DNA from: Marinitoga piezophila KA3
GTDB taxonomy: Bacteria; Thermotogota; Thermotogae; Petrotogales; Petrotogaceae
DNA: 64,000 bases
Assembly: GCF_000255135.1 (NCBI RefSeq)
Contig: NC_016751.1
Location: 372,001 to 436,000, forward strand
Reading direction: 5' to 3'
Shown here: one piece after another, positions 27,502 to 55,313 of the stretch
Layout of the letters: every line of letters starts with the position of its first letter
Position numbering within the stretch: the stretch's first letter is position 1
Program-made: the position numbers and the translations under genes
Notes under the pieces: model-generated
What the model saw: only the letters and a program-made list of their open reading frames with translations
Told to the model about the DNA's origin: nothing
Databases searched by the model: none

Positions 27502-27513
27502 GGAGATTTTTAA

Positions 27514-28797: not shown

Positions 28798-28813
28798 GAG
28801 AGGGGGAAGGGGC

Positions 28814-35635: not shown

Positions 35636-35637
35636 GT

Positions 35638-35991
35638 TTATTCACCACCTGTTTGAATAAATATATCAACATATCTCCTATACCAATTTGTAAATTCTAA
35701 CACTTTTTCCTGTATAGTAGAAAGTTCTTCTGTATTTTCAAGAAATGTAAGCAAATCCTCTCCCTTAAACAACCCTTTTTCTTTAAGATATTGTTCAATA
35801 TCATTAAATACAGCTTTATGATGATCTTTGTTTTTTGCTTTTAAAAATACAAGGGTTCCATATAACCCGTTTTGTATTATCATTGAACCAAGCCCTTTTA
35901 TCAAAGATCTATAATCATCTTTATATTTTTTATTTATTTTCTGAATAACAAATTTTTTTGCTAATAATTTTGTGCTGTTTTCTCTTTTCAC
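35638..35991 (-). CDS. cmr5: Type III-B small subunit Cmr5
   Basis: This 117-residue helical protein has the conserved GSMIIQNGLYGTLVFLKAK segment of Cmr5. Cmr5 subunits form the inner filament next to Cmr4. It starts with GTG at 35991, after GAGGTG. No ATG in this frame fits. Confidence 0.9.
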   Translation of the reverse strand: MKRENSTKLLAKKFVIQKINKKYKDDYRSLIKGLGSMIIQNGLYGTLVFLKAKNKDHHKAVFNDIEQYLKEKGLFKGEDLLTFLENTEELSTIQEKVLEFTNWYRRYVDIFIQTGGE

Positions 35992-36000
35992 ATTTTCACC

Positions 36001-36828: not shown

Positions 36829-36841
36829 GTTAATAACCCCC

Positions 36842-37819
36842 TTAAATTTTTATTTCAATATATTTTCCAAAATTATATTCATCATATTTATCAGTAAAAT
36901 TTATTTTATAATTTTCTTTTTCAAAATCACCTTTTATTACATAAACACTTCCCGAAGGAACCACTTTAAATTGTTCACCAGGATGATTATTTTTAAGATC
37001 CCAGTATCCAATTGTTTCAGGTTTATAATTGGCAATAGCTATAATATTACTATCAAATATAGGTTTTACTCCATCTTCAAAGTATGCTGGAGTTAGTAAC
37101 AATAAACCTTTTTGAGTATCAATTATTGGGTCAAAGATAGAAGTTTCTATCTCTTTTATTTCAATTTTTGCCATTTTTCCTTTTGTACCAAGAGTAATTA
37201 TTTCAATTTCATTTAATATATTTAATTCATCTCGCTCTATAAAAAAAGCAAATCCTGCATCGTCTATAAATCTAAAATATGAATATGAATATAGCATACC
37301 CTCCATTGCTTTTCTATTTTCAAGAGCAATTCCTATTTTTTCTTCTTTAAAATATATCTCAGAATTATCATTGGAAATTTTTAAATTTCCTTTTTTTAGT
37401 TCTTCTAATTCATTTAATGAAATATACGTTTTTTCAGGCTCTTTTAAATTTCTCATACTCTTATATTTTATCCCATATAATTCTTTACCGTTTAAATTAA
37501 AAGTAAATGTTTCATCTATTTCGCCTTTATAAAATTCTTTTGTGATATCATTTTGTTTTATTATTGCAGGCATTCTAAAGTATATGTTACTTTCACTATC
37601 GGTTAAAAATGGACCTATAATTTTCAGTTTTTTATCTTTTATTATTTGTTCTATTTCTTCCTGGGTTAAATTTTTCTTTCTCATATATGCTGTCATTATT
37701 GCACCATAAAATGTTTTTGGATTAGGAAATATTGTTTCCTCAGCGTGAGAAAAAGTTTTTGATTTTCTAAAACCAACCCAATCCACTGGTTTAATAAACA
37801 ATGTTTTAATTTTTTTCAT
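36842..37819 (-). CDS. cmr3: Type III-B RAMP protein Cmr3
   Basis: This 325-residue Cmr5/Cas5-like subunit holds the crRNA 5' tag beside Cas10. Family features are FIKPVDWVGFRKSKTFSHAE near the N-terminus, TFYGAIMTAYMRK and a C-terminal VVPSGSVYVIKG. The ATG at 37819 follows AAGGGAG by 7 bases; an in-frame ATG 7 codons earlier lacks one. The start overlaps the end of cas10 by 14 bases. Confidence 0.9.
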   Translation of the reverse strand: MKKIKTLFIKPVDWVGFRKSKTFSHAEETIFPNPKTFYGAIMTAYMRKKNLTQEEIEQIIKDKKLKIIGPFLTDSESNIYFRMPAIIKQNDITKEFYKGEIDETFTFNLNGKELYGIKYKSMRNLKEPEKTYISLNELEELKKGNLKISNDNSEIYFKEEKIGIALENRKAMEGMLYSYSYFRFIDDAGFAFFIERDELNILNEIEIITLGTKGKMAKIEIKEIETSIFDPIIDTQKGLLLLTPAYFEDGVKPIFDSNIIAIANYKPETIGYWDLKNNHPGEQFKVVPSGSVYVIKGDFEKENYKINFTDKYDEYNFGKYIEIKI

Positions 37820-40166
37820 ATATATTCTCCCTTCTTGCATATTCTATATTTTCAAGGGTATTGAAATATTCCATTAATTTATTTCCAGTAAGGAATCTTT
37901 CATTAAGTGTAATTAATTTTACAAATGAATTTTTTAATTTATCTTTTTTTATTTCCATTCTTTTTTCAAGAAATGGTATAATATTATTTTTAAAATCTTC
38001 AATGGTTAAAATTTCGTTTCCAAATTCATCAAAACAATAATTTATATATTCAGATTTTAAACGTAAAATTATATTTTTAATGGATTTTTCTTTTTCAAAA
38101 TCTTTTATAAATTCTAAACCTTTTAAAAGAATATCAAATCTATTCAATTCCCAAAAACTTTTTGATATATTTATTTGTCCGCTTCTTCTTATTGTAGCTA
38201 TTGCAAAACTATCTTTTTTTCTACCACTTTTTTCTTCATTAGATTTAGCAAGTTTTTCCATTTCTCGAGCCTTGTTAAGTGCAAGTTTTAAATTAAAATT
38301 ATGTTTCGATATAACAATTCCAGCACTCATTGTTGCCTGTTTTCCCATCATATTAAATACAGGATATTCCAGATTTTTTTCTTTTTTATAGCACCAGCCA
38401 TTTTTGAATACATATTCTCCAACTTTTTCTTCACCAATTCCAGAATAAACTTTTCTCAATTTATTAGCAGCATCAAAAACTTTATTAGAAGGGAAAAGAG
38501 CTAGCACATCATCTCCGCCAGCATATATTAATAATCCATCAAATTCTTCCACCACTTTTGGTACAAAATTTGAAAAATTATTTAAAGTTCTACTAATCAT
38601 CCTCTGATATGATGGAGTTACAAGATTTATATTTTCCAATAGTTTTGTGTATTCTTTGTCTTCTCTTTCTAATTCTTTTATAACTTTTGAATGTAGTCTT
38701 TTTTTAAATGATGGAGCTAATGTTCCCGATATCCATTTTCCCATATTATCTCCATCCATCAATAATACTGCAAGTTTATATTTTCCTGCTATTTCTTCAG
38801 TTGATTTTACATATTTTAATTTTTCATAAGCTTCTTTGTATCCAATTTCATTTAGATATTCAACAAATAATCTCTTTATTGCTGAAAGTGCCGATAATCT
38901 TTCCTTTTTTTCATCTTTGTCTATGATTTCGATTACTGCTTTATTTGCTCCGCTTAAATCGTCCCCATTTACAACATCATCTTCAAATAGTTGAATAAAA
39001 TCACGTGTAGTTTTTCTTAGAGAACTTTTTATACCCAATAATTCACTATACATTCCATAAAAAGCTATATCTTTCATTTGATATGTTGATTCAAGTTGTT
39101 TCATTTTTTGATATAATTTTTTAATATTTTCATCTTCTGTATAAATATAATGTTTTTCAATATATTTTTCAATGTTATTAATTTCTTGATCAACTGTAAT
39201 TATTATTGGGAATTGAGAAATTTGTTTATCCCAGTTTTTGAATGCTTCAAGTTTTTGAAAAATTGTTTCTTTATATTTTTTTTCTGATTGAATTAAATCT
39301 TCAATATATATTTTTATAAATTGACTTATATTTGACATTTCATCTTTTATTGCTTTTTTGATTTTGCTCTTTATTTTTTCTAGATCTTTTGTTGGAACAA
39401 TGGCAGTGAAAATATTAGGAAGTGAAGCAACGCCAGGATCAGCAGATGTTTCAACGAATATACCGATTTTTTCGAATTCTTTTTTCACAAAATAATTGCC
39501 TCTCATGTATGGGAATATTACATTGTCATATCCATACTCTTCACCTATTACTTTTATTCCTTGGAAGGTTAAATAGGATAACATATAACTTCCAACTTTT
39601 AAATCTATAGTTTTTCTTGCAGCCGCTATGAACTCTTGAACAGGTCCTATAGATACTAATAATAAAGACATTTTATTGCTAACACTCATTGCAGAAGCAC
39701 TATCAAGATGATCAATTATCGAATGACTTGGGATTCTTGTATCTCCAGGTAACATAAATGATAATTCAGTTTGTTCTGGAAGTTCCCACCATGTTTTATA
39801 ATATGTTTTTTTGAAATCTTCTAATTTTTCTAATTTATCAGTTATTTTTTCCGAATTAAGTTTATCAATTTTTTGTTTAAAATCATTTTTAAAATAATCT
39901 TCTAATTTTTCACCATTTAATGGATGTAAATATTCTGGATAATGGTATATATTTATGCTGATTCTTTTACTGAAATGTTCTTTTTCTTTTGGAAATAATA
40001 TTCTATCTGCAGCACTTGAAAGATAATCGGGATTTTTATAATCATCTTTTAAATATGTTCCCAATTTATTTAATCTTCTATTTGCAATATTTTCATGTTT
40101 TTCAAGATTTAACGCTTTTTCTATCGGATCATGCAAAAGCGCTATAATTTTTTTCTCCCAATTCAC
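37806..40166 (-). CDS. cas10: Cas10 (Cmr2), cyclic oligoadenylate synthase of type III-B
   Basis: This 786-residue protein has an N-terminal HD domain (LLHDPIEKAL, His12-Asp13, and SHSIIDHLDSA near 147). It has two palm domains, the second with an intact GGDD at 550-553 (IYAGGDDVLALF), and LMDGDNMGKW near 469. GGDD makes cyclic oligoadenylates when target RNA binds, which fits the two CARF effectors downstream. The start overlaps the cmr1 stop (ATGA). Confidence 0.96.
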   Translation of the reverse strand: MNWEKKIIALLHDPIEKALNLEKHENIANRRLNKLGTYLKDDYKNPDYLSSAADRILFPKEKEHFSKRISINIYHYPEYLHPLNGEKLEDYFKNDFKQKIDKLNSEKITDKLEKLEDFKKTYYKTWWELPEQTELSFMLPGDTRIPSHSIIDHLDSASAMSVSNKMSLLLVSIGPVQEFIAAARKTIDLKVGSYMLSYLTFQGIKVIGEEYGYDNVIFPYMRGNYFVKKEFEKIGIFVETSADPGVASLPNIFTAIVPTKDLEKIKSKIKKAIKDEMSNISQFIKIYIEDLIQSEKKYKETIFQKLEAFKNWDKQISQFPIIITVDQEINNIEKYIEKHYIYTEDENIKKLYQKMKQLESTYQMKDIAFYGMYSELLGIKSSLRKTTRDFIQLFEDDVVNGDDLSGANKAVIEIIDKDEKKERLSALSAIKRLFVEYLNEIGYKEAYEKLKYVKSTEEIAGKYKLAVLLMDGDNMGKWISGTLAPSFKKRLHSKVIKELEREDKEYTKLLENINLVTPSYQRMISRTLNNFSNFVPKVVEEFDGLLIYAGGDDVLALFPSNKVFDAANKLRKVYSGIGEEKVGEYVFKNGWCYKKEKNLEYPVFNMMGKQATMSAGIVISKHNFNLKLALNKAREMEKLAKSNEEKSGRKKDSFAIATIRRSGQINISKSFWELNRFDILLKGLEFIKDFEKEKSIKNIILRLKSEYINYCFDEFGNEILTIEDFKNNIIPFLEKRMEIKKDKLKNSFVKLITLNERFLTGNKLMEYFNTLENIEYARRENIYEKN

Positions 40167-41416
40167 TTTTTCTCCCCCTTATTCGTTAATTTTTTTTCAA
40201 CTTCCTTTTTAAATATATCCATTGCTTGATTATATATTTCAAAACTTTCTGGACTCTCAGTTATTAATTTATTTCTTCTTCCTTCGAAATATATTTTGTT
40301 ATTTAAAGAAATTTTACTTGTTATCATTAATATTCTTACATAATATTCATTTTTTTCATTTAAATGAAACGAGAAGAAAAATGGTGAAGCTTTTCTTTCA
40401 CCGTTTGTTAAAGTGTATTCATTACCTTTATAATTACGCAATTTTTTAGAGGTAATATTATATTTATAATTTATAGGTAATCCCATTAATGCCTGATAAA
40501 AAATAATATTACTTTCAATTGTATTTTTTGAAGATGCTTCAACTTCTCTTAAAGCATTTGTAAAAGAATCAGTGTTATTCAAAGTTCTTAGTTTCTTTTT
40601 AACTTTTATATAAACTCCTTTTTTAGATTCTTGCATTTCAGTTGCATAGAGTTTTTTATAGATATCAGAAAAATTCTTGATTGGAGATTTTTTTGTCGAA
40701 ACGACTCTATAAGTTTTGGGATCTGATAATAATACAGGAAATTCAGGTATATCTAAAAATTCTGTTTGAGAATACTTGAAATGAGTATCGGATATAGAGC
40801 TAAAATATCGTTTCAAATTTTCATCTAATTCATTTAAAATATTTTTTACACTGTTTTTAATTTCTGATGAATTTTCTTTATTCGTTTTTATTAACTCTAT
40901 TTTAAAGCTTCCAAAACCTTTTCTTGTTTTTGCACCAAACCCGCTTACTAAAGAAATTAAGTTCATTAAATTTATTATGATATTTAATAATTTATCTGGT
41001 TGCTTTTTTATGATAAAAGTTATATTTAATTTTGATTTTTCTTTTAAAAATTCTCTCTCTTCTACACCATAAATTCCATAAATGTAATTTATTTTTCTGT
41101 TTCTTTTATTTATTCTTGCAAAAGTAAAATAATCGTGATTGTTTGTAATATTAGTAGGCGATATTAAATCAACTATCACATCAAAACTTGATTTTCTTTC
41201 TGTTGAACCAAATATTAATTCTTCTGCTTTTTTTAATCCTATATATGGTTTTCTTTCACCGTTATAATAATGAATATCTATTACTCTTGGAACAACAGCT
41301 CTAAACCAGAATCTCATTACTCCTCTTACGCTTTGCGGAGTTAAAGAAAATGTTTTTCCGTCTCTACTTGCAAACATGGGCGATGTTGTAAGTAACTCAA
41401 ATTCTAGAATGTTCAT
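40163..41416 (-). CDS. cmr1: Type III-B RAMP protein Cmr1
   Basis: This 417-residue protein is first in the operon. It has FELLTTSPMFASRDG, LTPQSVRGVMRFWFRAVV and SGFGAKTRKGFGSF, typical of the two-RAMP Cmr1. It sits at the crRNA 3' end of the complex. GGAGGG precedes the ATG. Gene order cmr1-cas10-cmr3-4-5-6-cas6-CARF-CARF, with overlaps or short gaps, indicates one transcript converging on the ago operon. Confidence 0.93.
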   Translation of the reverse strand: MNILEFELLTTSPMFASRDGKTFSLTPQSVRGVMRFWFRAVVPRVIDIHYYNGERKPYIGLKKAEELIFGSTERKSSFDVIVDLISPTNITNNHDYFTFARINKRNRKINYIYGIYGVEEREFLKEKSKLNITFIIKKQPDKLLNIIINLMNLISLVSGFGAKTRKGFGSFKIELIKTNKENSSEIKNSVKNILNELDENLKRYFSSISDTHFKYSQTEFLDIPEFPVLLSDPKTYRVVSTKKSPIKNFSDIYKKLYATEMQESKKGVYIKVKKKLRTLNNTDSFTNALREVEASSKNTIESNIIFYQALMGLPINYKYNITSKKLRNYKGNEYTLTNGERKASPFFFSFHLNEKNEYYVRILMITSKISLNNKIYFEGRRNKLITESPESFEIYNQAMDIFKKEVEKKLTNKGEKK

Positions 41417-41536: not shown

Positions 41537-41701
41537 AATTAATTTCAAGAAAATATAAGACCCCTGAAATTAATTGTAAAGGTTAAAGTAGAAAAGAATA
41601 AAAAGTGTGTATATGGTAAAACAAATTGACCCCTCTAAGGAAGAAAAAGCTTATGATGAGTAGTAAAATAGAAATATAACTCGTCGAAAGGAGAATGGGG
41701 G

Positions 41702-41755
41702 ATGAAAATAATAATGGAAGCATATGAGATTATTACAATGCACAAGGAAATATAA
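41702..41755 (+). pseudogene. Short conserved ORF remnant upstream of leader 2 (possible transposase start)
   Basis: Behind a good AAAGGAG site, a frame of 17 codons (MKIIMEAYEIITMHKE...) stops at once. The same remnant lies at 52828-52881 with three amino-acid changes. MEAYEIITMHKE resembles the N-terminus of IS21-type IstA transposases, but the match is short, so this is a guess. The surrounding 41614-41800 is part of the duplicated segment and has no gene. 41417-41613 holds only the cmr1 promoter region and AT-rich DNA. Confidence 0.3.
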
Positions 41756-41800
41756 GCAATAATAAAGAATGGATAAAAAAAACAGCAATACTCGGAAATA

Positions 41801-42190
41801 AGAAATTTATAAATAAACTAAATATAAAAGAAAAACAAAAGAAAGATATTCGCAAAAATAACAAAACTATAAAATACGCATAAATAAACTAAAACATATC
41901 TATGAGGTTCGCAGAGGTTTATAATTTTGTAACACTTTTCAAAAATCACTTGACAAAAGGATTTTAGAATGTTATAATAGAAATAGTTCGTATACGGACC
42001 TAAATCCAAAAACACAAAATCTCTGAAAGCGGCTTAAACAAAGGAAAACTGAAAAACAGGTACGAATATAGATAAAAAGCAGATTATAGAGATTTTATTC
42101 GAAAAAATGCTGAAAATTTCAAAATTAAAAAACAGGTTCGAAAAATCACCTTCTAAAAAACGCTAATAATAACCATTCTAGAAACCAGCT
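41801..42190 (+). promoter_or_regulatory. CRISPR leader 2 (390 bp)
   Basis: It is nearly identical to leaders 1 and 3 and has the same length. Promoter: TTGACA 41950-41955, 17-base spacer, TATAAT 41973-41978. The repeat-core copy TCTCTGAAAG is at 42020, again 171 bases before the first repeat. Confidence 0.9.
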
Positions 42191-42612
42191 ATCCGAATAT
42201 CACTACTCTCTGAAAGAGATAGAAACTTTTTCGTCAAAACTCCCATCATATAAACTATTAATTGATTCATCCGAATATCACTACTCTCTGAAAGAGATAG
42301 AAACTGGTAATCTTCTGGGATGACAACGTCATCCCATATAAAAATATCCGAATATCACTACTCTCTGAAAGAGATAGAAACACCTCACTGATTTGAAACT
42401 TTTTATCAAAACTTCCATCGTAATCCGAATATCACTACTCTCTGAAAGAGATAGAAACGGACGTGTAATCCCCTCGTTAAAATACTTTTCTACTTCTTTA
42501 TCCGAATATCACTACTCTCTGAAAGAGATAGAAACTCCGATAAATCTTTTCTAATTGTATTCTGTAATTTTTTATTATCCGAATATCACCACTCTCTAAA
42601 AGAGACAAAAAA
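42191..42612 (+). CRISPR. CRISPR array 2, 6 repeats and 5 spacers
   Basis: Repeats start at 42191, 42269, 42346, 42423, 42500 and 42577. The first five are identical to the array 1 repeat (C at position 11). The last is degenerate (CACCACTCTCTAAAAGAGAC) and is the same degenerate form that ends array 3. Spacers 1 and 3 are antisense to the same peptide motif (see findings), and spacer 2 holds a 9-bp hairpin. Confidence 0.97.
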
Positions 42613-42641
42613 CTCCTGCATTGAAAAATGCAGGAGTTTTT
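42608..42641 (+). terminator. Terminator of array 2
   Basis: AAAAACTCCTGCATT and AATGCAGGAGTTTTT form a 15-bp stem around GAAA. It starts inside the degenerate last repeat. Confidence 0.92.
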
Positions 42642-42675
42642 GTATATGGTATAATAACACCATGGGGGTGAAAAA

Positions 42676-44343
42676 ATGAAGGAATTAAAAAGTCTTCCTC
42701 TGGGAGAAAGCAACTTTAAAACCATAATGGAAAACAATATGTATTTCATAGATAAAAGTATGCTCATAAAGGATATATTATCAGCTGGAAGAGTAATATT
42801 AATCACTCGACCAAGGAGATTTGGAAAAACATTAAATATGAGCATGTTAGAACATTTCTTTTCAATGAAAAAAAACAGTGAGAGTTTATTTAAAGATTTA
42901 AAAATCTGGAATGAAAAGAAAATAATAGAAAAGTATTTAAACAAGTATCCTGTTATATTTATTAGTTTTAAAGGCTTAAAAAAGAAAAAATATGAAGATA
43001 TGAAAAACGGAATAAGAGAGTTAATATCAAAATTATACACAAAGTATGTATATCTACTTAATACTGATAAAATAACACAATGGGATAAAAAAAGAATTAT
43101 AGGTATATTAGATAAAACTGCAGAAGACGCTGTTTTCGAAGATGGAATAAAAAATCTAACAGAATATTTATATATATATCATGGTAAAAAGGTAATATTA
43201 TTAATAGACGAATACGATACACCGATACAACAATCATATCTAAATGGATATTATGATGAGCTAATAGATTTTATAGGAAATATACTTGGAAATGCATTAA
43301 AAGATAATGAGTATTTAGAAAAAGCTGTATTAACAGGAATAACAAGAGTGGCAAAAGAGAGTATATTTACAGGAGTAAATAACCTCCAAATTTCAACTGT
43401 ATTAAGCAGATTATTTAATGACAAATTCGGAATGACAAAAGAAGAATTACATGAAGCTTTGAAATATTATGGAATGGAATACGAAGAAGAAAAGATAATA
43501 GAATGGTATAATGGATTTAATTTTGGAGGATTTGAAATATACAATCCATATTCAATAATGAATTTAATCTTTGAAAAGGAAATAAAGAATTACTGGATAA
43601 ACACCAGCGGGAATAAGTTAATAAAAGATTTAATAGCCAAAGGAAGTGCAGAAATAAAATCAAAGATTTATGATTTAATAGAAGGTGAAACAGTAACAAC
43701 AACAATAAATGAAAATTTGGTATATGGAGATTTAAATGTCAATGTAGAAGAAAGCGTATGGACACTCTTTTTATTTACAGGATACTTAACCTGGATAGAC
43801 AAAATAGGGGAAGGAAACAGTGCAGAATACAGACTAAAAATAACAAACAAAGAAGCTCTTGATTTCTTTAAAAAAACAGTGGTTAACATATTAGAGGATT
43901 CAGGTTTTAAATACAAAACACTGTTAAAAGATTTAATAGAGGAAAATTATGAAGAATTCAAAGAAAATTTTAAAGAATTAGTAGAAAATACAATAAGTTA
44001 TTTTGATGTAAGTGGAAAAGAACCAGAAAGGTTTTATCATGGACTTATATTGGGACTGAGTGTGGGATTACAAAAGGAATATATAATAAAAAGCAATAGA
44101 GAATCAGGATATGGAAGAGCGGATTTAATATTAATTCCAAAAAAGAGAAGCAATCCAGGGATAATATTTGAATTTAAAAAATACTATAAAAAAGATGGAG
44201 ATTTAAAAAGTAGCGCAGAAAAAGGAATGAAACAAATAGAAGAAAAGAATTATGAAACGGAAATAAAAAGCCATGGAATAGAAAGAATAATAAAAGTTGC
44301 TATTGCTTTTGATAAAAAAGAGGTTGAGATTGTAATTAAATAA
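42676..44343 (+). CDS. AAA-ATPase-like / PD-(D/E)XK nuclease protein
   Basis: This 555-residue protein has an N-terminal AAA-ATPase-like domain (PF09820 type): LPLGESNFKTIMENN, Walker A TRPRRFGKTLNMSML near residue 45 and Walker B VILLIDEYDTP near 175. The C-terminal PD-(D/E)XK nuclease-like domain (PF08011 type) has GYGRADLILIP and IIFEFKKY, giving the D...ExK set. Such proteins are abundant and often multicopy, with unknown function. A TGG-TATAAT extended -10 lies directly after the array 2 terminator (about 42648). A truncated relative lies after array 3. Confidence 0.88.
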   Translation: MKELKSLPLGESNFKTIMENNMYFIDKSMLIKDILSAGRVILITRPRRFGKTLNMSMLEHFFSMKKNSESLFKDLKIWNEKKIIEKYLNKYPVIFISFKGLKKKKYEDMKNGIRELISKLYTKYVYLLNTDKITQWDKKRIIGILDKTAEDAVFEDGIKNLTEYLYIYHGKKVILLIDEYDTPIQQSYLNGYYDELIDFIGNILGNALKDNEYLEKAVLTGITRVAKESIFTGVNNLQISTVLSRLFNDKFGMTKEELHEALKYYGMEYEEEKIIEWYNGFNFGGFEIYNPYSIMNLIFEKEIKNYWINTSGNKLIKDLIAKGSAEIKSKIYDLIEGETVTTTINENLVYGDLNVNVEESVWTLFLFTGYLTWIDKIGEGNSAEYRLKITNKEALDFFKKTVVNILEDSGFKYKTLLKDLIEENYEEFKENFKELVENTISYFDVSGKEPERFYHGLILGLSVGLQKEYIIKSNRESGYGRADLILIPKKRSNPGIIFEFKKYYKKDGDLKSSAEKGMKQIEEKNYETEIKSHGIERIIKVAIAFDKKEVEIVIK

Positions 44344-44375
44344 AAAAGGCTCCTCGTTTTGAAGAGCCTTTTTGT
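44343..44375. terminator. Bidirectional terminator between convergent genes
   Basis: AAAAAGGCTC and GAGCCTTTTT form a stem of about 10 bp, with A and T runs on both sides. It separates the ATPase gene from the minus-strand operon. Confidence 0.88.
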
Positions 44376-46568
44376 TTATAATACAAACACATTAACCTTA
44401 TTTCTGAGAATAAATCGAATAAGATACTTGAGATTTTCGCATATTTCTTCTGTTAGATTGTTTGATTCAGTATCATTTAAAACATCCAATATAGCTTTAA
44501 TAGAAGCGTTTTTATGTTCCAATTTTTCTGGTAATTCAGAATATTCAATAAATTTCTGATATTTTAGTTTAAATCCATCTCCAAATATTTTCTTTGATGT
44601 TTCAAAAAGAAGCAAACCATTTTTTCCAAATACAAATACTGTATATACTTTAAATGCATTTTTTGGAAGGTTAAAAGCATTTCGAGTTAATACAATAATA
44701 AAGTTATTCTTAAAGAATTTTTTGGAATTTACATCACTAAAAAAGTAATATTCATCATCAAAATTATCTTTAATTAAAGATTTGAAATTTTCCTTTTCTT
44801 TTTCAGAAAACTTTTCATACATTTCAACAAAGGCATTTGCTAATGAATCTGAATCAAGAATAATGTTATTATATTTATCCTTAACCTGAAAATCATAATA
44901 AATGTCAGAAAGATAAAAGTCTGGATCGTTAAAATCCTTAATTCTAACTAATTTCTTATCTTTATCATAATAGAGATAATGCTCTAATTTCTGATTTTTT
45001 ACAATATTAAGATAAATTCTTTTTAGATATTCTTTTCGTTCTATATCGGAATTAATAATATTATTCCATACATTTGAATAATAAATTCCTTCATTGATTA
45101 TTTCTCTTTTATATTTTTCTATTTCATCATTTTTTAGATAGTTTTTATAGTTAATCATCAAATAAGTCATCACTTTATCTTTTAATAAACTTATTTTTTC
45201 ATTTATATTCCAATTATAATATTCCTGCATAAGATAAGGCTCAAAAGCATTTTCTATATTTTCATTTTTTTCAAACCATGTTTTTAAATCATCTATTAAT
45301 TCAATTATACGTTTATCCTTATTATTTATGTAATAATATGCTTTGGCTAATAATTTCAAATTATAATCGTTTATATTTTCTGAAGTATCTATATTTTTCT
45401 CTATCAATTTTTCAAGGTTAATAAATAAATTTCCATATTCACTATAAACATCTCTTTGCAAGGAAAGAATATTTTCTCCTAAGTTTTCGAGCGTATTTAT
45501 TTTTTCTTCATCTATCGCAATCTGACTTTTGTATAAATAATTTATAAAATCCTTATATTTTCCAACTTCTGTATAATTTTTATTTTGACTATTTCTATAT
45601 GCAAACATGTAATAAATAAAATCTGATGTATACTTTTTAAAATCCTCTTCATTCTGAGTATTAAATTTGAAATTTATTAAATCTCCACCATTTAATATGA
45701 ATCCAATTAAGGTATTTTTATTTCGATTGATTTTAAAGGAATAATTATAATCAAAAGGATTATCTGGGTTTACCAGTTTATAACATAATTCCCCTTTAAA
45801 CTTAGATTCCACATCATTAAAAAATGTTTTATGATCCTTTTTATATTCTTGTGAAAAATTAAAAGTAAATTTAATTTCTGGATCTTCTTTATTTAAAAAC
45901 TCTGCAAAATATTTGCCATTTTCATCAGAAAACTTGTATTTTCTATATAACTCATTAGTTAATTTAAAATACGCTTGAAAACGTTCGGCATTAATTTTTG
46001 TAAAGTTATTATCAGGTTCGGAAAATTTCAAATCATATTCTTCAGGAACAAACTTTTTCAAATATTCTTTTAACGCTTTTTCTGTTTTTTCATAAATTCC
46101 TTTATTTATTGCAATATCCCTTGAATACATCTTAAATCCTTCTTTTATATTGTCTTTATAATAAGAAGAATCTATTTTTATTTGATCAGTTACAATAATA
46201 GGTTTTTTATCAAAAGATTCACCATAATAGAAAATTTCAGGACTTGGAAAATAAATTACTCCTTTTGAATAAACTTTTTCTTCTGATTTTATCTTATTCA
46301 AATCTATCCCTGCTTCAACAGTATATGGATATATAGCGACATAATAATTATTATTTTCATCCTTTGCTATAAACAGAAAATCCATATTATATGAGAATAC
46401 TCTTAATTGGGCTAAATCTCTTATAGCTTCAATATTCAGACTTGGAATTTGTACTGAAACTTCTTTAGATTTAGCAAAAAAATTAGAAATTATATTATAT
46501 CTCGAAACCAAAAAGGCTATTCCTATTATTAATGCTAGAGTTAGTATTCTAATTATCATTTTCTTCAT
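44376..46568 (-). CDS. Membrane-anchored exported protein with DUF4230-like N-terminal region
   Basis: This 730-residue protein has one N-terminal transmembrane helix (about residues 5-22), so the rest is likely outside the membrane. The next 150 residues resemble DUF4230: IPSLNIEAIRDLAQLRVFSY, then TVEAGIDLNKI and VIYFPSPEIFYYG. The remainder is charged, Asn/Lys-rich and mostly helical with no known domain. It is the last gene of a three-gene operon; its start overlaps the upstream stop by 4 bases. Function unknown. Confidence 0.65.
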   Translation of the reverse strand: MKKMIIRILTLALIIGIAFLVSRYNIISNFFAKSKEVSVQIPSLNIEAIRDLAQLRVFSYNMDFLFIAKDENNNYYVAIYPYTVEAGIDLNKIKSEEKVYSKGVIYFPSPEIFYYGESFDKKPIIVTDQIKIDSSYYKDNIKEGFKMYSRDIAINKGIYEKTEKALKEYLKKFVPEEYDLKFSEPDNNFTKINAERFQAYFKLTNELYRKYKFSDENGKYFAEFLNKEDPEIKFTFNFSQEYKKDHKTFFNDVESKFKGELCYKLVNPDNPFDYNYSFKINRNKNTLIGFILNGGDLINFKFNTQNEEDFKKYTSDFIYYMFAYRNSQNKNYTEVGKYKDFINYLYKSQIAIDEEKINTLENLGENILSLQRDVYSEYGNLFINLEKLIEKNIDTSENINDYNLKLLAKAYYYINNKDKRIIELIDDLKTWFEKNENIENAFEPYLMQEYYNWNINEKISLLKDKVMTYLMINYKNYLKNDEIEKYKREIINEGIYYSNVWNNIINSDIERKEYLKRIYLNIVKNQKLEHYLYYDKDKKLVRIKDFNDPDFYLSDIYYDFQVKDKYNNIILDSDSLANAFVEMYEKFSEKEKENFKSLIKDNFDDEYYFFSDVNSKKFFKNNFIIVLTRNAFNLPKNAFKVYTVFVFGKNGLLLFETSKKIFGDGFKLKYQKFIEYSELPEKLEHKNASIKAILDVLNDTESNNLTEEICENLKYLIRFILRNKVNVFVL

Positions 46569-47431
46569 TGTATCACTTCCAATAAACTATTATCCCATAC
46601 AACCTCAACATTTTCATCTTGAATTGAATATAGTGGTTTTACAGCTTTTAAGAATTCCGATTTATAGTATTCTATAATATCTTTTTTAAATTCATTATCA
46701 TTCCCGTATAAAAACTCAAGAGCTATTAAATCCTTTGCTTTTGCTTTTATCTCTTCGTCTAATCCAAGTGAAAGATCATTAACTGTATTTGAGCTTTGAG
46801 AAGAAGATTTTTCTAATTTTCTAACAAAATGCTTCGTTAAAAGATATCCTCCAACAGCTCCACCTAATGTTCCAACAATATTTATAGCTTTAAAATTCTT
46901 TAAAATAGAAATATTTGTTAATTTGCTACCAATCCAGGCTCCCAAAACTGTTCCTACTACTGGTGAAAATTTTTCTGTAATATCCATCAAATTACTATTA
47001 TTACTTTTTACTTCAATTGGAAATGTATCAATTTCTTTTGAATTTTCTATTTCAACATCAATTTTCAACATATCTTTTTGTGGAATAGAAATATACACTA
47101 TTTCCTTACCTGTTACCGAATCACTTTCGATTCTCTTTTTTAAATCTTCTACATTAAACTTTATTTCTGCTCTACCTTTAATATAATAAACTCTTGCCTT
47201 GTTTTGATTATTGTCTTTATACACAATATAATTATTAAATTGAATTTCTTTAAACACAATATATTCTATATTGTCAAAATAACTTTTCTTGGGAGCTGAC
47301 ACTTCATTTTCAACGGGAAAGAAATAATTAAAAATAAAAACAAATAATATAAAAATCCCTATATAAAACAGGATTACAGCAAATCTTTTTAACATTCCAT
47401 TTTTCTTTTTAACTTTGTCCTGCTCGTCCAT
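46565..47431 (-). CDS. Membrane protein with DUF4230-like region and glycine-zipper segment
   Basis: This 288-residue protein has an N-terminal transmembrane helix (about 15-36), then an exported domain with YYIKGRAEIKFNVEDLKKR and IVYISIPQKDML. That pattern resembles DUF4230 and its larger neighbour. A glycine-rich segment (VVGTVLGAWIGSKL ... GTLGGAVGGYLLTK) may insert in or contact a membrane, and a helical C-terminus follows. The ATG at 47431 follows GGAGGG; an upstream in-frame ATG at 47455 overlaps the protease stop and lacks one. Role unknown. Confidence 0.6.
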   Translation of the reverse strand: MDEQDKVKKKNGMLKRFAVILFYIGIFILFVFIFNYFFPVENEVSAPKKSYFDNIEYIVFKEIQFNNYIVYKDNNQNKARVYYIKGRAEIKFNVEDLKKRIESDSVTGKEIVYISIPQKDMLKIDVEIENSKEIDTFPIEVKSNNSNLMDITEKFSPVVGTVLGAWIGSKLTNISILKNFKAINIVGTLGGAVGGYLLTKHFVRKLEKSSSQSSNTVNDLSLGLDEEIKAKAKDLIALEFLYGNDNEFKKDIIEYYKSEFLKAVKPLYSIQDENVEVVWDNSLLEVIQ

Positions 47432-47451
47432 AAAATCCCTCCTGTTTTTTA

Positions 47452-49776
47452 TCAATAATTATAATATTTACTAAATTTATTCTTTAACGTTTTAAAAAGC
47501 CAATCATTTGGTAATCTGGAATCATAAAATAATTTAATAAAATTATCTTTTTTTATTTCATAATATAGATCATTTGCAGAAATAGCAAAATTTAAGCCTT
47601 CGGTAATATTTTTATCCCCCCCCAAAGAATTGATTCCTATTACATTTCCATACTTATCAATAAGAGGACCTCCAGAATTCCCATGATTTATTGCAGCATC
47701 TGTTTGAATTAATTCAAAAAATTTGTTATTGTTTATATTATAAAATTCATTAATCCTTGCAAATCTTAGTGCTGATATAATACCTTGAGTAAATGTAAAA
47801 TCTAATCCTTCTGGATTTCCTAAAGCATAAACCTTTGTTCCAATAGTATGAGAATATAATCCTAAAGGCAATACCGGATATGTGTTATCAAGATAAAATT
47901 TAGATATGCTTAAAATCGCTATATCTTTAAATGTAGTATTTATAAAAACTTCTTCTGGAGAAACAGTTTCGCCATTAAAAAAAGTTATGGAAAGTCCGTA
48001 ATAAGATATATCTTTCGTTATATCTTCACCTATTGTGGAAACAACATGTGCATTTGTTGCAATATAATAGTAAAAATCATCTTCAGCAATTATAAAACCG
48101 CTACCTGAACCTTCCAATTCTTCATAAGAAGAATAAACATAATTATTTATTCTTACAACACTCTCCATTTTCTTTGCAATCTCTTCTGGAGAAATAATTT
48201 CTTCTCCTCTTTCTGCTATTAATAATTTATTTTTTAAATCATGTTTTTTAAAAGTTTGTATATAGTCAATAAAATTATTGTTGTTTGACATATATGTTTT
48301 GTATGCCTCAAAAATCTCAGTTCCATCTTTTTCTATATATTGTAAAATAGTATTTTCAGAACTACATAATAAAGCATAAATGTTATCATTATAAGGTATA
48401 TAACCTTCCAATAAATAAAAACCATTATATTCATATGTATCAATTATTTCAAACTTCTCATCTTTATATTTTAATTTAGTTAAAAATGTTTTTTCATTGT
48501 CAAAATCATATTGTGTTAAAACAATAAACCAACCATTTTTCCAATAAATATATGGTCTTGAAATAATTGGAAATTTTAAAATCTTTTTTGAAATTATTTT
48601 TTCATCAGACGACAGCATATATATTTCCTTATTATATGTAATTAACGTCAATAAATCTCCAGTAAAATTAAAGTCATAAACAACATTCCCTGAAACTAAC
48701 GGATACTTATAATTACCTTTATTGGGAAGTTCACTATAAGATATATAATAAGACTTTGTTGTAGGATCATATTCTATATAATTGATAGTAAAATTTTTAT
48801 CTACAAAAACGCCTTCTGGATAATAATCATTATCTACATCTGCGTAATAAACTGTTGAAATTGGTGCAAAAATATCCTCTTCATCTTGATACCAATAATC
48901 AAAATCTATTTTTATCAAATTACCATTATCCAATATTTTAATATAATTATCTTCAAAAAACACCACTTCAATTTTCCCATCCTGATTAAGGTCTGAAAAT
49001 GTAGGAGGGAGTTTATGAGACTTTTTTTCAGCATAATATCTATTTATTATATTTCCTTCATAATCCAATTGGTATATATATTTTTCAGTTTGGATAAACA
49101 AATTATCAGAAAAATCAAATTCATCCCTATAAATAACACCTGAAATTATATAATCAGGTTTTGTAACAATATTGGTTTTATAAACATAAGAAATATTACT
49201 ATTATTCCTTAAGAGATGTAATGTAGCTACATCCTCAGAATAATTTTCAAGATATTTTGCCATATCGGAATAATTATATAGATATTCATCGTTAATTTTT
49301 ATGATAATATCGTTCTTTCTTGCATTTAATTTATTCTCTTTAATAATAAAATCATTGTCAAAATCATTGGTTATCTCAATATCTTTATATTCAAATGACT
49401 TTTTCCATTCAACACTGATTTTTTCAGAATCTGATACATAAAAAGAAATTAATGTATTATCATAATATGCATAATATGTACTAAAATATCCTGGATAAAA
49501 ACACTCACCAGAAACTATTGAAACGGGAGAATACGTCTTAAAAACATCAAGAATTTCCAAATTTTCTTTATCTAATAAATATATTCCCGCATCATTATAA
49601 TCTTTATCCGGAGTTCCTGGAGAAGCTAAAATAATATAATTATTTGTAACTATAGGCGCATAATAAAAAAGTTCATCTCTATCTTCCATTGAAATATTAA
49701 GTATTTTTATATCCCCAAAAGAAAAAATACTAAAAATTAATAATACTATAAAAAGTAGAAAAAATGATTTTTTCAT
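47452..49776 (-). CDS. Exported HtrA/trypsin-like serine protease with N-terminal propeller-like domain
   Basis: This 774-residue protein has a signal peptide (about residues 3-21). A long beta-rich region contains FG-GAP/VCBS-like DLNQDGKIEVVF and DVDNDYYPEGVF repeats, and a PDZ-like stretch (NDIIIKINDEYLYNYSDM) lies near 160. The C-terminal trypsin fold has catalytic His577 (ATNAHVV), Asp618 (KDIAIL) and Ser701 (HGNSGGPLI). All three are present. Having the protease C-terminal to a propeller-like region is unusual for HtrA, where PDZ domains follow the protease. It is first in the operon with two DUF4230-like proteins, suggesting envelope surveillance. Confidence 0.8.
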   Translation of the reverse strand: MKKSFFLLFIVLLIFSIFSFGDIKILNISMEDRDELFYYAPIVTNNYIILASPGTPDKDYNDAGIYLLDKENLEILDVFKTYSPVSIVSGECFYPGYFSTYYAYYDNTLISFYVSDSEKISVEWKKSFEYKDIEITNDFDNDFIIKENKLNARKNDIIIKINDEYLYNYSDMAKYLENYSEDVATLHLLRNNSNISYVYKTNIVTKPDYIISGVIYRDEFDFSDNLFIQTEKYIYQLDYEGNIINRYYAEKKSHKLPPTFSDLNQDGKIEVVFFEDNYIKILDNGNLIKIDFDYWYQDEEDIFAPISTVYYADVDNDYYPEGVFVDKNFTINYIEYDPTTKSYYISYSELPNKGNYKYPLVSGNVVYDFNFTGDLLTLITYNKEIYMLSSDEKIISKKILKFPIISRPYIYWKNGWFIVLTQYDFDNEKTFLTKLKYKDEKFEIIDTYEYNGFYLLEGYIPYNDNIYALLCSSENTILQYIEKDGTEIFEAYKTYMSNNNNFIDYIQTFKKHDLKNKLLIAERGEEIISPEEIAKKMESVVRINNYVYSSYEELEGSGSGFIIAEDDFYYYIATNAHVVSTIGEDITKDISYYGLSITFFNGETVSPEEVFINTTFKDIAILSISKFYLDNTYPVLPLGLYSHTIGTKVYALGNPEGLDFTFTQGIISALRFARINEFYNINNNKFFELIQTDAAINHGNSGGPLIDKYGNVIGINSLGGDKNITEGLNFAISANDLYYEIKKDNFIKLFYDSRLPNDWLFKTLKNKFSKYYNY

Positions 49777-49813
49777 AAAACCAGCTCCTTTTTAATGAAT
49801 TTTGAAATAATAA

Positions 49814-49842
49814 TTGATTTTTCAAAATATTCTTGTTATAAT
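49814..49842 (+). promoter_or_regulatory. Promoter of the ankyrin gene operon
   Basis: TTGATT at 49814-49819, 17-base spacer, TATAAT at 49837-49842, in the divergent region between the protease and ankyrin genes. Confidence 0.65.
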
Positions 49843-49907
49843 TATAATACAAAAACTTTAATTATAATAACAAAAAGAGTTTCGATTAAATAAATTGAGG
49901 GGAAAAT

Positions 49908-51257
49908 ATGGATGAAAAAATTATATTTAGTATATTAAATCACGAAAATGATATAATATATAAAAAGTATTTAAATAATGAATTTTTATTTGGAGAAAGT
50001 ATAGAAACAACTATTACTCCTCTTCATGCAGCAATTATTTCAGATAACATAGAAGTTATAAAACTCATGGAAAAAAGCGGATATAATATAGTTTATGCTC
50101 TTTTAAACAATAATGATATTTTAAATCCATATATTTTAGCTAAACGCTTAGACCGAGAAGAAATAGTAGAATATTTTGATGAAATATTAGAACAAAATTT
50201 AAATACGGATTTAAAAAATACAGAAAATTTTAAATATATAGAAATTGAAAAAGTATTTGAAGATATATTAAAAGATGCTGAGAATAAACAGAAAATACAG
50301 GAATTCTTAGAAAAATTTTTAAAACATCCCAAAAATTTATTATTAGAAACAAATATAGCAAAAAGAATTTTTTGTGAAATACCTAATGAAGAACTAGTTT
50401 TTTTTATAAAAAAAATTATAGATGTTTTAACCGATGAGTATTGCTCTATGTTTTTATATGAATTTTTGGATCCAAAATGTAAATTAGCTTCTGTATATGC
50501 ATTAATAAGGATTAAAGAGAGCCAGAATATAGCTGTTTATTATAATGAAAAATATATAAACAGATTAATAGACATTTATGATATTTTTATGCTGAATGAT
50601 GACGAAGATAAAATTACATATCTTGAAACTATAAACAGATTTTATATTGAAGAATTATCTGAAGATATAAAAGATTTATTTTTTGAAACACAAAATGATA
50701 AATTAAAATATATTACATACAAAATATTATTAAAATATGAATTAGAAGAATTATTTGAAATAACAAAGGAAGCAATGAAATCAAATTATTTACCTTTAAA
50801 AGAACTGGCAACACTAATATGTATATTAAAATATGAAAATAATTGTAAAAAACAGGACAATATTAAATTTGAAAATTTAAGGGAAGAAGATTATATTGCT
50901 ATTTCATTATTTGATACTCCATATGTGGAGGATATAATATATAAAAAATTTTCAACTTTTTCATATGATACAAAATTAAATATAATTCATAATCTGATCA
51001 TTATAAGCTCAAAAAGAAGATATAACATGTTATTGGATATATATAAATTTGAAAAAAATCCTGAGATAAAAGCTGAAATCATTTATCAATTCATTATCAG
51101 AGAAATATACACACCTGAAATATTAAAAGTATTTATAGAAGATTTTATAAAGAATCTAGATGAATATAATTCGTATGATGATAATGAAGATTTTAATATA
51201 TTTAGTGCCTTAGGGCATTATTTTGCAAATATTTTGATGAAAAAAGAATTGTTTTAG
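49908..51257 (+). CDS. Ankyrin-repeat protein
   Basis: This 449-residue cytoplasmic protein has ankyrin-like repeats at the N-terminus: TPLHAAIISDNIEVIKLMEKSGYN (positions about 37-60), then NPYILAKRLDREEIVEYF. The remaining 330 residues are helical and HEAT-like with no domain I recognise. GAGGGG precedes the ATG. It is followed 11 bases later by an exported protein gene, suggesting an operon. Binding partner unknown. Confidence 0.65.
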   Translation: MDEKIIFSILNHENDIIYKKYLNNEFLFGESIETTITPLHAAIISDNIEVIKLMEKSGYNIVYALLNNNDILNPYILAKRLDREEIVEYFDEILEQNLNTDLKNTENFKYIEIEKVFEDILKDAENKQKIQEFLEKFLKHPKNLLLETNIAKRIFCEIPNEELVFFIKKIIDVLTDEYCSMFLYEFLDPKCKLASVYALIRIKESQNIAVYYNEKYINRLIDIYDIFMLNDDEDKITYLETINRFYIEELSEDIKDLFFETQNDKLKYITYKILLKYELEELFEITKEAMKSNYLPLKELATLICILKYENNCKKQDNIKFENLREEDYIAISLFDTPYVEDIIYKKFSTFSYDTKLNIIHNLIIISSKRRYNMLLDIYKFEKNPEIKAEIIYQFIIREIYTPEILKVFIEDFIKNLDEYNSYDDNEDFNIFSALGHYFANILMKKELF

Positions 51258-51268
51258 GAGGATAATGT

Positions 51269-52153
51269 ATGAAAAAAATTCTTTTATTTTTTTTGTTATC
51301 ATTTTTAACTGTTTTTGTTTATGCGCAAATTCTTCTTTCAACAGAAGGTAAAAAAATTCTTGAAGAAGAATTAAATCGTTTTAATATAGAAGTTATTAAT
51401 GAAATAGATAATACAACTGAGAAAATATACAATAAAATTGCAGATTATGAAAAATATTCAAAAATTTTTGTGGAGGATATTACCGATCTCGGAAGCACTT
51501 CAAAATCTATTTATTATATGTCAAAAGATTCTCTTCTAAAACTAATAAAAAGAAATTCTAATAGCTATGAAAATTATATAAAAAAAATGTTTGAACATCA
51601 TTTTTTCAATGAAGAAAAAATTAAAAAAATAATAGTAGACGAGATAAATATTTTCAACATAAAAATCAATGAAAAATTATATACTTTTATAGAAAATTTA
51701 GATAAAAAACTAAGTATGGAAGATAAAAAAATACTTGAAAATGATGATGATTTTAAATCTTTTGTAAATGCTTTTGATGTAAATGGAATTTTCAAAAACA
51801 ATAATGAAATTTTTTCTGAACAAATAATAAATCTAGTTTCAACTCATCAAAATTCCATATTAAAAAAAAAGTTATTCTCTGCAACATTAAAATCAGGAAG
51901 TATTGTTGGCTCATTCTGGATTAGTCTTAGTACCCAAAACCCTATCTTTGTAGCAACAAGTATATTTTACACTATTATCCTCACTTTAAACAGTGAAAAA
52001 AACAATATTAAAAAGGAAGAGTTAGCTGTAGAAATTTCTTCGCAAATAGAAAAATATGCAGATAATATTTCAAATATTGTCAAAAAATTATTAAGCCAAA
52101 CAATAGATACTGAAATAAATAAAATTAAAAAATCCTTTAATCTTCTATACTGA
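51269..52153 (+). CDS. Exported coiled-coil protein with a C-terminal membrane helix
   Basis: This 294-residue protein has a signal peptide (KKILLFFLLSFLTVFVYAQ) and a long charged helical body. A hydrophobic stretch near 215-238 (GSIVGSFWISLSTQNPIF..SIFYTIILTL) and a further helix follow. I do not recognise a family. GGAGG lies 7 bases before the start. It is in the same operon as the ankyrin gene. Confidence 0.55.
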   Translation: MKKILLFFLLSFLTVFVYAQILLSTEGKKILEEELNRFNIEVINEIDNTTEKIYNKIADYEKYSKIFVEDITDLGSTSKSIYYMSKDSLLKLIKRNSNSYENYIKKMFEHHFFNEEKIKKIIVDEINIFNIKINEKLYTFIENLDKKLSMEDKKILENDDDFKSFVNAFDVNGIFKNNNEIFSEQIINLVSTHQNSILKKKLFSATLKSGSIVGSFWISLSTQNPIFVATSIFYTIILTLNSEKNNIKKEELAVEISSQIEKYADNISNIVKKLLSQTIDTEINKIKKSFNLLY

Positions 52154-52180
52154 AATAAAAAATTTAAAAGGAGTGTACTT

Positions 52181-52693
52181 ATGCCAAATAATAATTTCAA
52201 AGACTTTGAAAATGAAGTAAATAGTTATGAAAATAAAGTTGAAATAGAGTCTGATTCATTTTACAAAAAATTAAGAAATAAAATTAAAAAATGGGCTGGG
52301 AAGAATAAAGATAATAAAATCCTTGAATATATATTGCTTGCGCCAGATTTATTTTATTTTTTTCTTACCGTTTTAAAAGATAAAGATGTATATGTTGACT
52401 ATAAGCTAAAAATTACTGGATATCTTGCATATTTTATTTCTCCAATAGATATTATGCCTGAAATGGTTTTGGGACCAGCTGGATATTTAGATGATGTATT
52501 AATGGGATTATTATTCCTCAGAACTCTTTTAAAGGAATTGCCATATGAGTATGTAGAAGAAAAATGGCCGGGTGATAAAGAAGTTTTAAAAAATGTCTCG
52601 GTAATGATTGATAATATTCAAGCTATTATTGATAGTAAAATTTTTAGAAGTGTGATGTCATATTTTTCCAAAAATATAGAGAAGAAAAAATAA
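52181..52693 (+). CDS. YkvA-like DUF1232 protein
   Basis: This 170-residue protein carries the DUF1232 core LKITGYLAYFISPIDIMPE followed by GYLDDVLMGLLFLRTLL, a short membrane-associated helical hairpin with a DD motif. The function of the family is unknown. An AAGGAG site precedes the ATG. The gene ends the ankyrin operon; the hairpin ATACTCTCC/GGAGAGTAT at 52704-52733 may terminate it. Confidence 0.75.
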   Translation: MPNNNFKDFENEVNSYENKVEIESDSFYKKLRNKIKKWAGKNKDNKILEYILLAPDLFYFFLTVLKDKDVYVDYKLKITGYLAYFISPIDIMPEMVLGPAGYLDDVLMGLLFLRTLLKELPYEYVEEKWPGDKEVLKNVSVMIDNIQAIIDSKIFRSVMSYFSKNIEKKK

Positions 52694-52827
52694 GACTTTT
52701 TGTATACTCTCCTTCAAAATAGAGGGAGAGTATTGTATATGGTAAAATAAATCGCCCCCTCTAAGGAAGAAAAAGCTTATGATGAGTAGTAAAATAGAAA
52801 TATAACTCGTCGAAAGGAGAATGGGGG

Positions 52828-52881
52828 ATGAAAACAATAATGGAAGCATATGAGATTATTACAATGTACAAGGGAATATAA
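52828..52881 (+). pseudogene. Short conserved ORF remnant upstream of leader 3
   Basis: This is the counterpart of the remnant at 41702-41755, with three amino-acid differences in 17 codons. The shared segment starts near 52737 and runs into leader 3. Confidence 0.3.
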
Positions 52882-52926
52882 GCAATAATAAAGAATGGAT
52901 AAAAAAAACAGCAATATTCGGAAATA

Positions 52927-53316
52927 AGAAATTTATAAATAAACTAAATATAAAAGAAAAACAAAAGAAAGATATCCGCAAAAATAACAAAACCATAAAA
53001 TACGCATAAATAAACTAAAACATATCTATGAGGTTCGCAGAGGTTTATGATTTTGTAATACTTTTCAAAAATCACTTGACAAAAGGATTTTAGAATGTTA
53101 TAATAAAAATAGTTCGTATACGGACCTAAATCCAAAAACACAAAATCTCTGAAAGCGGCTTAAACAAAGAAAAACTGAAAAACAGGTACGAATATAGATA
53201 AAAAGCCGATTATAGAGATTTTATTCGAAAAAATGCTGAAAATTTCAAAATTAAAAAACAGGTTCGAAAAATCACCTTCTAAAAAACGCTAATAATAACC
53301 ATTCTAGAAACCAGCT
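52927..53316 (+). promoter_or_regulatory. CRISPR leader 3 (390 bp)
   Basis: Promoter: TTGACA 53076-53081, 17-base spacer, TATAAT 53099-53104. The repeat-core copy TCTCTGAAAG is at 53146. It is closer in sequence to leader 2 than to leader 1 (for example CTATGAGG rather than CTACGAGG). Confidence 0.9.
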
Positions 53317-54809
53317 ATCCGAATATAACTACTCTCTGAAAGAGATAGAAACATAAATAAACTATCTCGTAATTTTTATTGTCTGAAAGTATATCCGAAT
53401 ATAACTACTCTCTGAAAGAGATAGAAACTTTAGCTGAATAATAATAATTCTTTTCAATGTTGCAAATCCGAATATAACTACTCTCTGAAAGAGATAGAAA
53501 CACAAATAGAAAATTTTTCATCGAATGAACCATCGTAGAGGCTATCCGAATATAACTACTCTCTGAAAGAGATAGAAACAAATACCTCTAAAACCTTTTT
53601 TATTTACTTTTTTTATTAAATCCGAATATAACTACTCTCTGAAAGAGATAGAAACGAGGTCATCGAAATACTCGGACTCTATGTCTCCAATAGAGGAATC
53701 CGAATATAACTACTCTCTGAAAGAGATAGAAACTCTTCTTCTTTTTCTACCCACCCGAATATTCTAAGGTGGGCATCCGAATATAACTACTCTCTGAAAG
53801 AGATAGAAACTTCACCTCCTCTGGAGTTGGCTTTCTATATTCAATGATTCCATCCGAATATAACTACTCTCTGAAAGAGATAGAAACTTCGATCCACCAT
53901 CTAAGCTGTCATCTCCTTTCTCTAAGGAAATCCGAATATAACTACTCTCTGAAAGAGATAGAAACGCAACTTTTTTAATCATTGTTCTGGGTTTTGTTTT
54001 CCATAATCCGAATATAACTACTCTCTGAAAGAGATAGAAACAATTTTTCAATCAATTTTTTTACTCTTTCTCTTTCTAACAATCCGAATATAACTACTCT
54101 CTGAAAGAGATAGAAACGGGTATCATACATCCCCAATCTGAGAAGAATTGGGGATATAATCCGAATATAACTACTCTCTGAAAGAGATAGAAACATTGTT
54201 ACAACATCAGCAATAGTGAAATGATACTCTTCTTATCCGAATATAACTACTCTCTGAAAGAGATAGAAACACTTTTTTCATTATATTTAAAAATTTTCTA
54301 ATTTTTTTCAATCCGAATATAACTACTCTCTGAAAGAGATAGAAACTAATAATGGTTGGAAAATCGAGGAATGACAATTCATCATAATCCGAATATAACT
54401 GCTCTCTGAAAGAGATAGAAACTGCGGTTTAAACTCTCTCCAATTTCCAATAGGAACTACCTCATCCGAATATAACTGCTCTCTGAAAGAGATAGAAACA
54501 AAATAATCAAATGCTCCTTCTGCAATCAAAAAATATTCTTATCCGAATATCACTACTCTCTGAAAGAGATAGAAACCAAGTTCGTCTGCTTCTGGTGATA
54601 AATCGATTCTGTCTATAATCCGAATATCACTACTCTCTGAAAGAGATAGAAACTTCATTTCCTCGATTTTTTCTTCCTTCATTGATTCAGGTATTCCGAA
54701 TATAACTGCTCTCTGAAAGAGATAGAAACGAAACTATGATTGTTTGAAAACATAGTGTTTAAACTTTTCATCATCTAATTTACAACCACTCTCTAAAAGA
54801 GACAAAAAA
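53317..54809 (+). CRISPR. CRISPR array 3, 20 repeats and 19 spacers, mosaic repeat variants
   Basis: Repeats start at 53317, 53393, 53466, 53544, 53620, 53698, 53775, 53852, 53930, 54006, 54082, 54159, 54235, 54311, 54387, 54464, 54541, 54618, 54694 and about 54773. The main variant has A at position 11 (ATATAACTACTC). Repeats 15, 16 and 19 also have G at position 15. Repeats 17 and 18 carry the C11 form of arrays 1 and 2. Repeat 19 has T at position 1. The last is degenerate (CAACCACTCTCTAAAAGAGAC). The tag AUAGAAAC is unchanged, so the same Cas6 and Cmr complex should serve it. Confidence 0.97.
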
Positions 54810-54838
54810 CTCCTGCATTTTTCAATGCAGGAGTTTTT
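54805..54838 (+). terminator. Terminator of array 3
   Basis: AAAAACTCCTGCATT and AATGCAGGAGTTTTT form a 15-bp stem with loop TTTC, the same stem as after array 2. Confidence 0.92.
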
Positions 54839-54871
54839 GTATATGGTATAATAACACCGTGAGGTGAAAGT

Positions 54872-55167
54872 ATGGAAGAATTAAAAAATCTTCCTCTGGG
54901 AGAAAGCAACTTTAAAACCATAATAGAAAACAATATGTTTTTCATAAATAAAAGTATGCTTATAAAAGATATTTCGGAAGGTGGAGATGTAATATTAATT
55001 ACAAGACCAAGAAGATTTGAAAAAACATTAAATATAAGCATGTTAGAACATTTTTTCAATGAAAGAAAACAGTGTGAATTTATTTAAAGATTTAAAAATC
55101 TGGAATGAAAAGGAAATATTAGAAAAGTATTTAAATAAATATCCTGTTATATTTATTAGTTTTCAGG
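54872..55167 (+). pseudogene. Truncated, inactivated copy of the AAA-ATPase/PD-(D/E)XK gene
   Basis: The first 66 codons match the gene at 42676 closely (LPLGESNFKTII, MLIKDI, LNISMLEHFF). Walker A is mutated: TRPRRFEKT instead of TRPRRFGKT. A 2-base deletion near 55054 shifts the frame and gives a stop at 55085. Homology continues at DNA level to about 55167 (equivalent to residue 100 of 555) and then ends. The promoter-like TGG-TATAAT after the array terminator is also copied. Confidence 0.88.
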
Positions 55168-55313
55168 GATCAGGTCGAAAATTGCAATTACCCCCCTAAA
55201 AATTCGTAAAACTAATTATTTATATTATATTAAATTATCAGTGTCGAGAATAAATTTTATTATGATATAATTCAATTGATAATCTAGAGCGTCTGAAATA
55301 AAGGTGGGAAATT

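Follow-up and report, generated by a model that had tools for sequence, protein, structure and literature searches.

Three spacers in two CRISPR arrays of Marinitoga piezophila KA3 are antisense to one conserved peptide and probably derive from diverged homologs of a foreign gene

Carrying several spacers against one foreign gene is ordinary and already known behaviour of CRISPR arrays. In the vent bacterium Nitratiruptor, several spacers are directed against one conserved phage gene, that of the tape measure protein, and there the phages are known and the matches are found at the DNA level (PMC9723563). Type III interference requires crRNAs that are antisense to the transcript, as reported for the III-B system of Marinomonas mediterranea, which has an RT-Cas1 fusion (PMC5576922). 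For Marinitoga piezophila, a III-B locus with a CRISPR-associated primase-polymerase, Cas1 and Argonaute has been described, in passages that do not take up the targets of its spacers (PMC8211822).

We analyzed a window of 64,000 nucleotides, positions 372001-436000 of the 2,231,407-base chromosome of M. piezophila KA3, a deep-sea thermophile; the chromosome has a companion replicon of 13,386 bases. Gene order and proteins of the III-B locus were the same as in the published description, with nothing different (PMC8211822). Compared with Marinomonas mediterranea, Cas1 is a separate protein here and the primase-polymerase adjoins it; compared with Nitratiruptor, no target gene has come to light here, and the relation among the spacers shows at the codon level only. 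The III-B assignment rests on Cas10/Cmr2 together with Cmr1, Cmr3, Cmr4 and Cmr6 (TIGR02577, TIGR01894, TIGR01888, TIGR02580 and TIGR01898, all above cut-off), and family matches at the locus also include NF040561 and NF048006. The gap at 35636-36000 could hold a putative gene for the Cmr5 small subunit. A 563-residue protein encoded at 31244-32935 gave a CRISPR DxTHG/CARF-type match (TIGR02221, TIGR02549), and it may correspond to a fusion of Csx1 and a ring nuclease that is reported from Marinitoga.

Table 1 Features of the CRISPR locus, in coordinates of the window
Feature	Position	Strand	Remarks
Spacer A1_s2	24114-24153	+	Probably antisense to bet/recT, second site; KGWCKVYRKD vs GGWAKVYRKD (genome G010)
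CRISPR array 1	24000-25721	+	23 repeats (last degenerate), 22 spacers; repeat common to arrays 1-3
Adaptation and Argonaute block	25861-30733	+	
CRISPR-associated primase-polymerase	25861-27501	+	
cas1	27514-28518	+	
Marinitoga Argonaute	28814-30733	+	
cas6	34075-34896	-	TIGR01877
Type III-B effector genes	34883-41416	-	cmr1, cas10/cmr2, cmr3, cmr4, cmr6
cmr6	34883-35635	-	
cmr4	36001-36828	-	
cmr3	36842-37840	-	
cas10/cmr2	37806-40166	-	
cmr1	40163-41416	-	
Leader region of array 2	41608-42226	+	Duplicated as array 3 leader (52734-53352); 97% over first 300 nt
CRISPR array 2	42191-42612	+	6 repeats (last degenerate), 5 spacers; low-coordinate leader
Spacer A2_s1 (spacer 1, array 2)	42227-42268	+	42 nt; leader-proximal in array 2; antisense peptide ESINSLYDGSFDEK
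Spacer A2_s3 (spacer 3, array 2)	42382-42422	+	41 nt; antisense peptide YDGSFDKKFQISE(V)
CRISPR array 3	53317-54729	+	19 repeats, 18 spacers; low-coordinate leader
Spacer A3_s3 (spacer 3, array 3)	53502-53543	+	42 nt; antisense peptide SLYDGSFDEKFSIC
Spacer A3_s9	53966-54005	+	Antisense to phage bet/recT; WKTKPRTMIKKV vs WKSKPRTMIKKV of Nitratiruptor phage NrS-2 Bet

One 36-nt repeat, ATCCGAATAT(C/A)ACT(A/G)CTCTCTGAAAGAGATAGAAAC, occurs in all three arrays and separates spacers of 37-42 nt. All full repeats end in ATAGAAAC, so that the locus combines a Cas6 with arrays carrying a repeat-derived 5' tag. A shared region just upstream of the first repeat and the degenerate last repeats of arrays 1 and 2 place the leader on the low-coordinate side, which makes the plus strand the crRNA strand. 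The surroundings of arrays 2 and 3 are duplicated (41608-44343 and 52734-55168): both modules have the same leader and, downstream of the array, an AAA-ATPase/PD-(D/E)XK_9 gene, which is intact past array 2 and truncated past array 3. Repeat variants are mixed in array 3, with AACTAC near the leader and AACTGC and CACTAC toward the far end, which suggests that this array was assembled from different repeat lineages.

The reverse complements of A2_s1, A2_s3 and A3_s3 read, in one frame, overlapping segments of ESINSLYDGSFD(E/K)KF(S/Q)I. The initial annotation had reported three spacers antisense to a common peptide, YDGSF-D-(E/K); its coordinates were those of the exact spacers and the peptide itself stood, but its reading of A2_s1 was one residue short, since this spacer continues to ...FDEK. 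The codon for the tyrosine starts at nt 19 of the reverse complement in A2_s1, at nt 1 in A2_s3 and at nt 7 in A3_s3. The three spacers thus start and stop at different codons and represent three separate acquisitions. Each of them is among the three spacers closest to the leader in array 2 or array 3; such positions are held by 9 of the 45 spacers, and the probability that all three would fall there by chance is 0.6%, a feature that was noted post hoc.

Codon comparison gave the strongest evidence. Between A2_s1 and A3_s3, which have SLYDGSFDEK in common, there were 10 differences over 30 nt, every one synonymous and including AGT/TCA for serine, and the peptide was kept in none of 400,000 simulated sets of 10 random substitutions. 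A2_s1 and A2_s3 differed at 5 of 24 nt, four of these being third positions (equally good in 552 of 200,000 simulations), and in A2_s3 and A3_s3 the 12 differences, spread over 12 codons, altered no more than 3 residues (10 of 200,000). These results confirm the earlier observation of a conserved peptide with mostly synonymous third-base changes. In a six-frame comparison of all 45 spacers against each other, the three pairs ranked first to third (scores 53, 51 and 41; the next pair 34). When 45 spacers are read in six frames, some short peptides will be shared by accident, and the best pair among 12 shuffled spacer sets also attained 41; yet with peptides cut at 13 residues the trio scored 36, which 300 sets of randomly drawn phage 41-mers, 45 in each, never reached (best random score 34), and all three spacers read on the same strand, so a coincidental peptide is hardly credible. 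Frame sharing and synonymous divergence are what spacers from homologous genes would show, and the trio is well explained only by homologous coding DNA on which selection acts at the protein level. Synonymous-only divergence also fixes the strand and frame of the target.

Derivation of the three from one copied spacer that diverged inside the arrays is equally hard to believe. The duplicated leaders and flanks of arrays 2 and 3 mean that exchange between arrays happens, but the end points of the spacers differ, the repeats beside them are intact, and drift within an array would not be confined to synonymous sites. Third-position divergence with a conserved peptide thus bears out the view that the spacers stem from diverged homologous coding sequences and not from a copied spacer. 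A single infection or plasmid might have supplied all three if one element contained the coding segment several times, as paralogs or as internal repeats. We regard this as unlikely. The spacers are all leader-proximal and perhaps of similar age, and no homolog was found that could tell separate elements apart; against it, synonymous sites are close to saturation between A2_s1 and A3_s3, beyond what is usual for recent repeats, in a comparison limited to the motif. We favour, with a probability of about 0.8, three separate acquisitions from diverged homologs of one foreign protein-coding gene, with crRNAs antisense to its mRNA.

Antisense targeting was array-wide, because the crRNA strand was pyrimidine-rich in 36 of 44 spacers, against 8 with the opposite bias (one tie excluded; p = 2.5e-5). 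In such genomes the purine-rich strand is expected to be the coding strand. A count of open frames gave no such bias (12 to 15), as may be expected with stretches of 13 codons. The arrays as a whole are thus directed at the purine-rich strand, and one of them, A3_s9, is antisense to bet, as a III-B system with guides against transcripts would have it. The crRNA strand of the trio is antisense to the coding frame and the Cmr (III-B) operon adjoins the arrays, in line with the earlier proposal that all three crRNAs would pair with the mRNA.

A search with the spacers and the peptide, along the lines proposed in the initial annotation, returned no protospacer and no motif-bearing gene in the host genome outside the arrays, Thermotogota, more distant genomes, IMG/VR, species genomes, phages or plasmids. 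The refuting case named there, with protospacers in unrelated genes or in a different frame, did not arise in these collections. The earlier interpretation is therefore partly supported: homologous coding DNA and antisense orientation held, but the protospacers were not found. In the host genome (assembly completeness 99.95%) the motif was confined to the arrays. Since RNA is what type III crRNAs recognise, the spacers could conceivably serve as regulatory guides against a host gene, but this confinement makes such a role very improbable. Across 103 Thermotogota genomes the motif had no match by pattern or by a 14-position profile, and only the arrays stood out; the best non-array matches of the profile had E values of 0.03-0.07 per genome, which fits chance. 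One of these matches, SLREGSFDEKYS in a 474-residue open frame of genome G009, was not accepted as the target because that frame resembles a radical-SAM/SPASM protein. The motif was also absent from 287 further, more distant genomes.

IMG/VR was scanned with degenerate-codon patterns for YDGSFD(E/K)KF, YDGxFDxKF, DGSFDxKFxI, LYDGSFD(E/K)K, NSLYDGSFD and YDGxF(D/E)xKFxI and by an alignment-based search. The pattern scans were either empty or hit unrelated proteins, with matches such as YDGIFDIKF and DGTFDVKF, and the alignment-based search did not find the motif. One strict motif had six matches in 84,980 species genomes, all unrelated. Composite 20-residue peptides had no tblastn match among phages and plasmids and none in PHROGs or Pfam, where the HMMER filters are harsh at this length, and a single match in the PDB was due to chance. 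Neither the three known Marinitoga viruses, MPV1, MCV1 (first 50 of 53.4 kb) and MCV2, nor plasmid pMP1 contained the motif. Because a motif gene was found in none of these collections, the source is an element outside them, or its motif has changed beyond the patterns used. We predict the conserved motif SLYDGSFD(E/K)KF in a Marinitoga element absent from the searched collections.

MCV1 (L110 48034-48054, minus strand) and MCV2 (L111 2675-2695, minus strand) carry the same solitary CRISPR-repeat-like unit, TTCTCTGAAAAAGATAGAAAC, which is identical to the host repeat at 19 of 21 positions. The unit follows a regulator gene and has a TATACT box upstream of it. It is a candidate for a solitary repeat unit or an RNA anti-CRISPR.

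An independent case of repeated targeting came from the remaining spacers. When all 45 spacers were compared by blastn with phages, plasmids and 61 relatives, A3_s9 alone was confirmable. In NrS-2 and NrS-3, two vent phages of Nitratiruptor, it matched the strand opposite to bet, with agreement at 33 of 38 nt and 11 of 12 residues. It is also antisense to recT of a Marinitoga genome, with which it overlaps (G004:C5:22743-22768, within 22344-22847; 92% of 25-26 nt). At the protein level, a scan against MPV1, MCV1 (again the first 50 of 53.4 kb), MCV2, NrS-2, pMP1 and prophage regions brought out only the Bet/RecT spacers; A3_s18 scored 48 but was discounted because of its repetitive sequence. 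The A1_s2 peptide fits a conserved Bet/RecT site, G....(V/I).RKD, upstream of the A3_s9 site. Taken alone, A1_s2 is only a probable Bet/RecT spacer because its score of 49 barely exceeds the maximum of 47 among 387 shuffled peptides. A3_s9 and A1_s2, which belong to different arrays, thus seem to match two sites of one conserved recombinase family, which suggests repeated targeting of conserved phage genes in M. piezophila KA3. The proposal of repeated immunisation against one conserved mobile-element protein gains this second case, but a "mobile-element family" and "the same codon position in different genes" stay at the level of what we infer.

Under the favoured reading of separate acquisitions from diverged homologs, the homologs would be located in different elements, most likely phages. 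Their crRNAs would be processed by Cas6 and loaded on the Cmr (III-B) complex, which would bind the transcript by base pairing, cut it and trigger Cas10 signalling. A single guide would miss the next homolog because the homologs would differ at most synonymous sites, and the locus may have gained several guides for this reason. Three overlaps at the motif suggest a hot spot, a suggestion weakened because overlap is recognisable only where the protein is conserved, and two spacers taken from elsewhere in the gene would go unnoticed. A more far-reaching idea, which we consider doubtful, is that a conserved, codon-degenerate motif of an unsampled vent-element family is the common object of guides that the arrays collect one by one. 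If true, the type III system would cover a protein that can change only synonymously by gathering its synonymous variants successively. As the trio shows, spacers without a database match can still be linked to each other, and to a reading frame, by mutual codon-level comparison.

Strong hairpins were seen in five spacers (42305-42345, 25186-25226, 54118-54158, 53734-53774 and 24880-24921; e.g. TGGGATGAC-AAC-GTCATCCCA). Three stems scored at least 20, where the expected number from DNA of phages, plasmids and prophages was 0.03-0.6, and the total spacer stem score was 4 SD above dinucleotide shuffles, although the numbers are small. These hairpins could hint at how prespacers are made.
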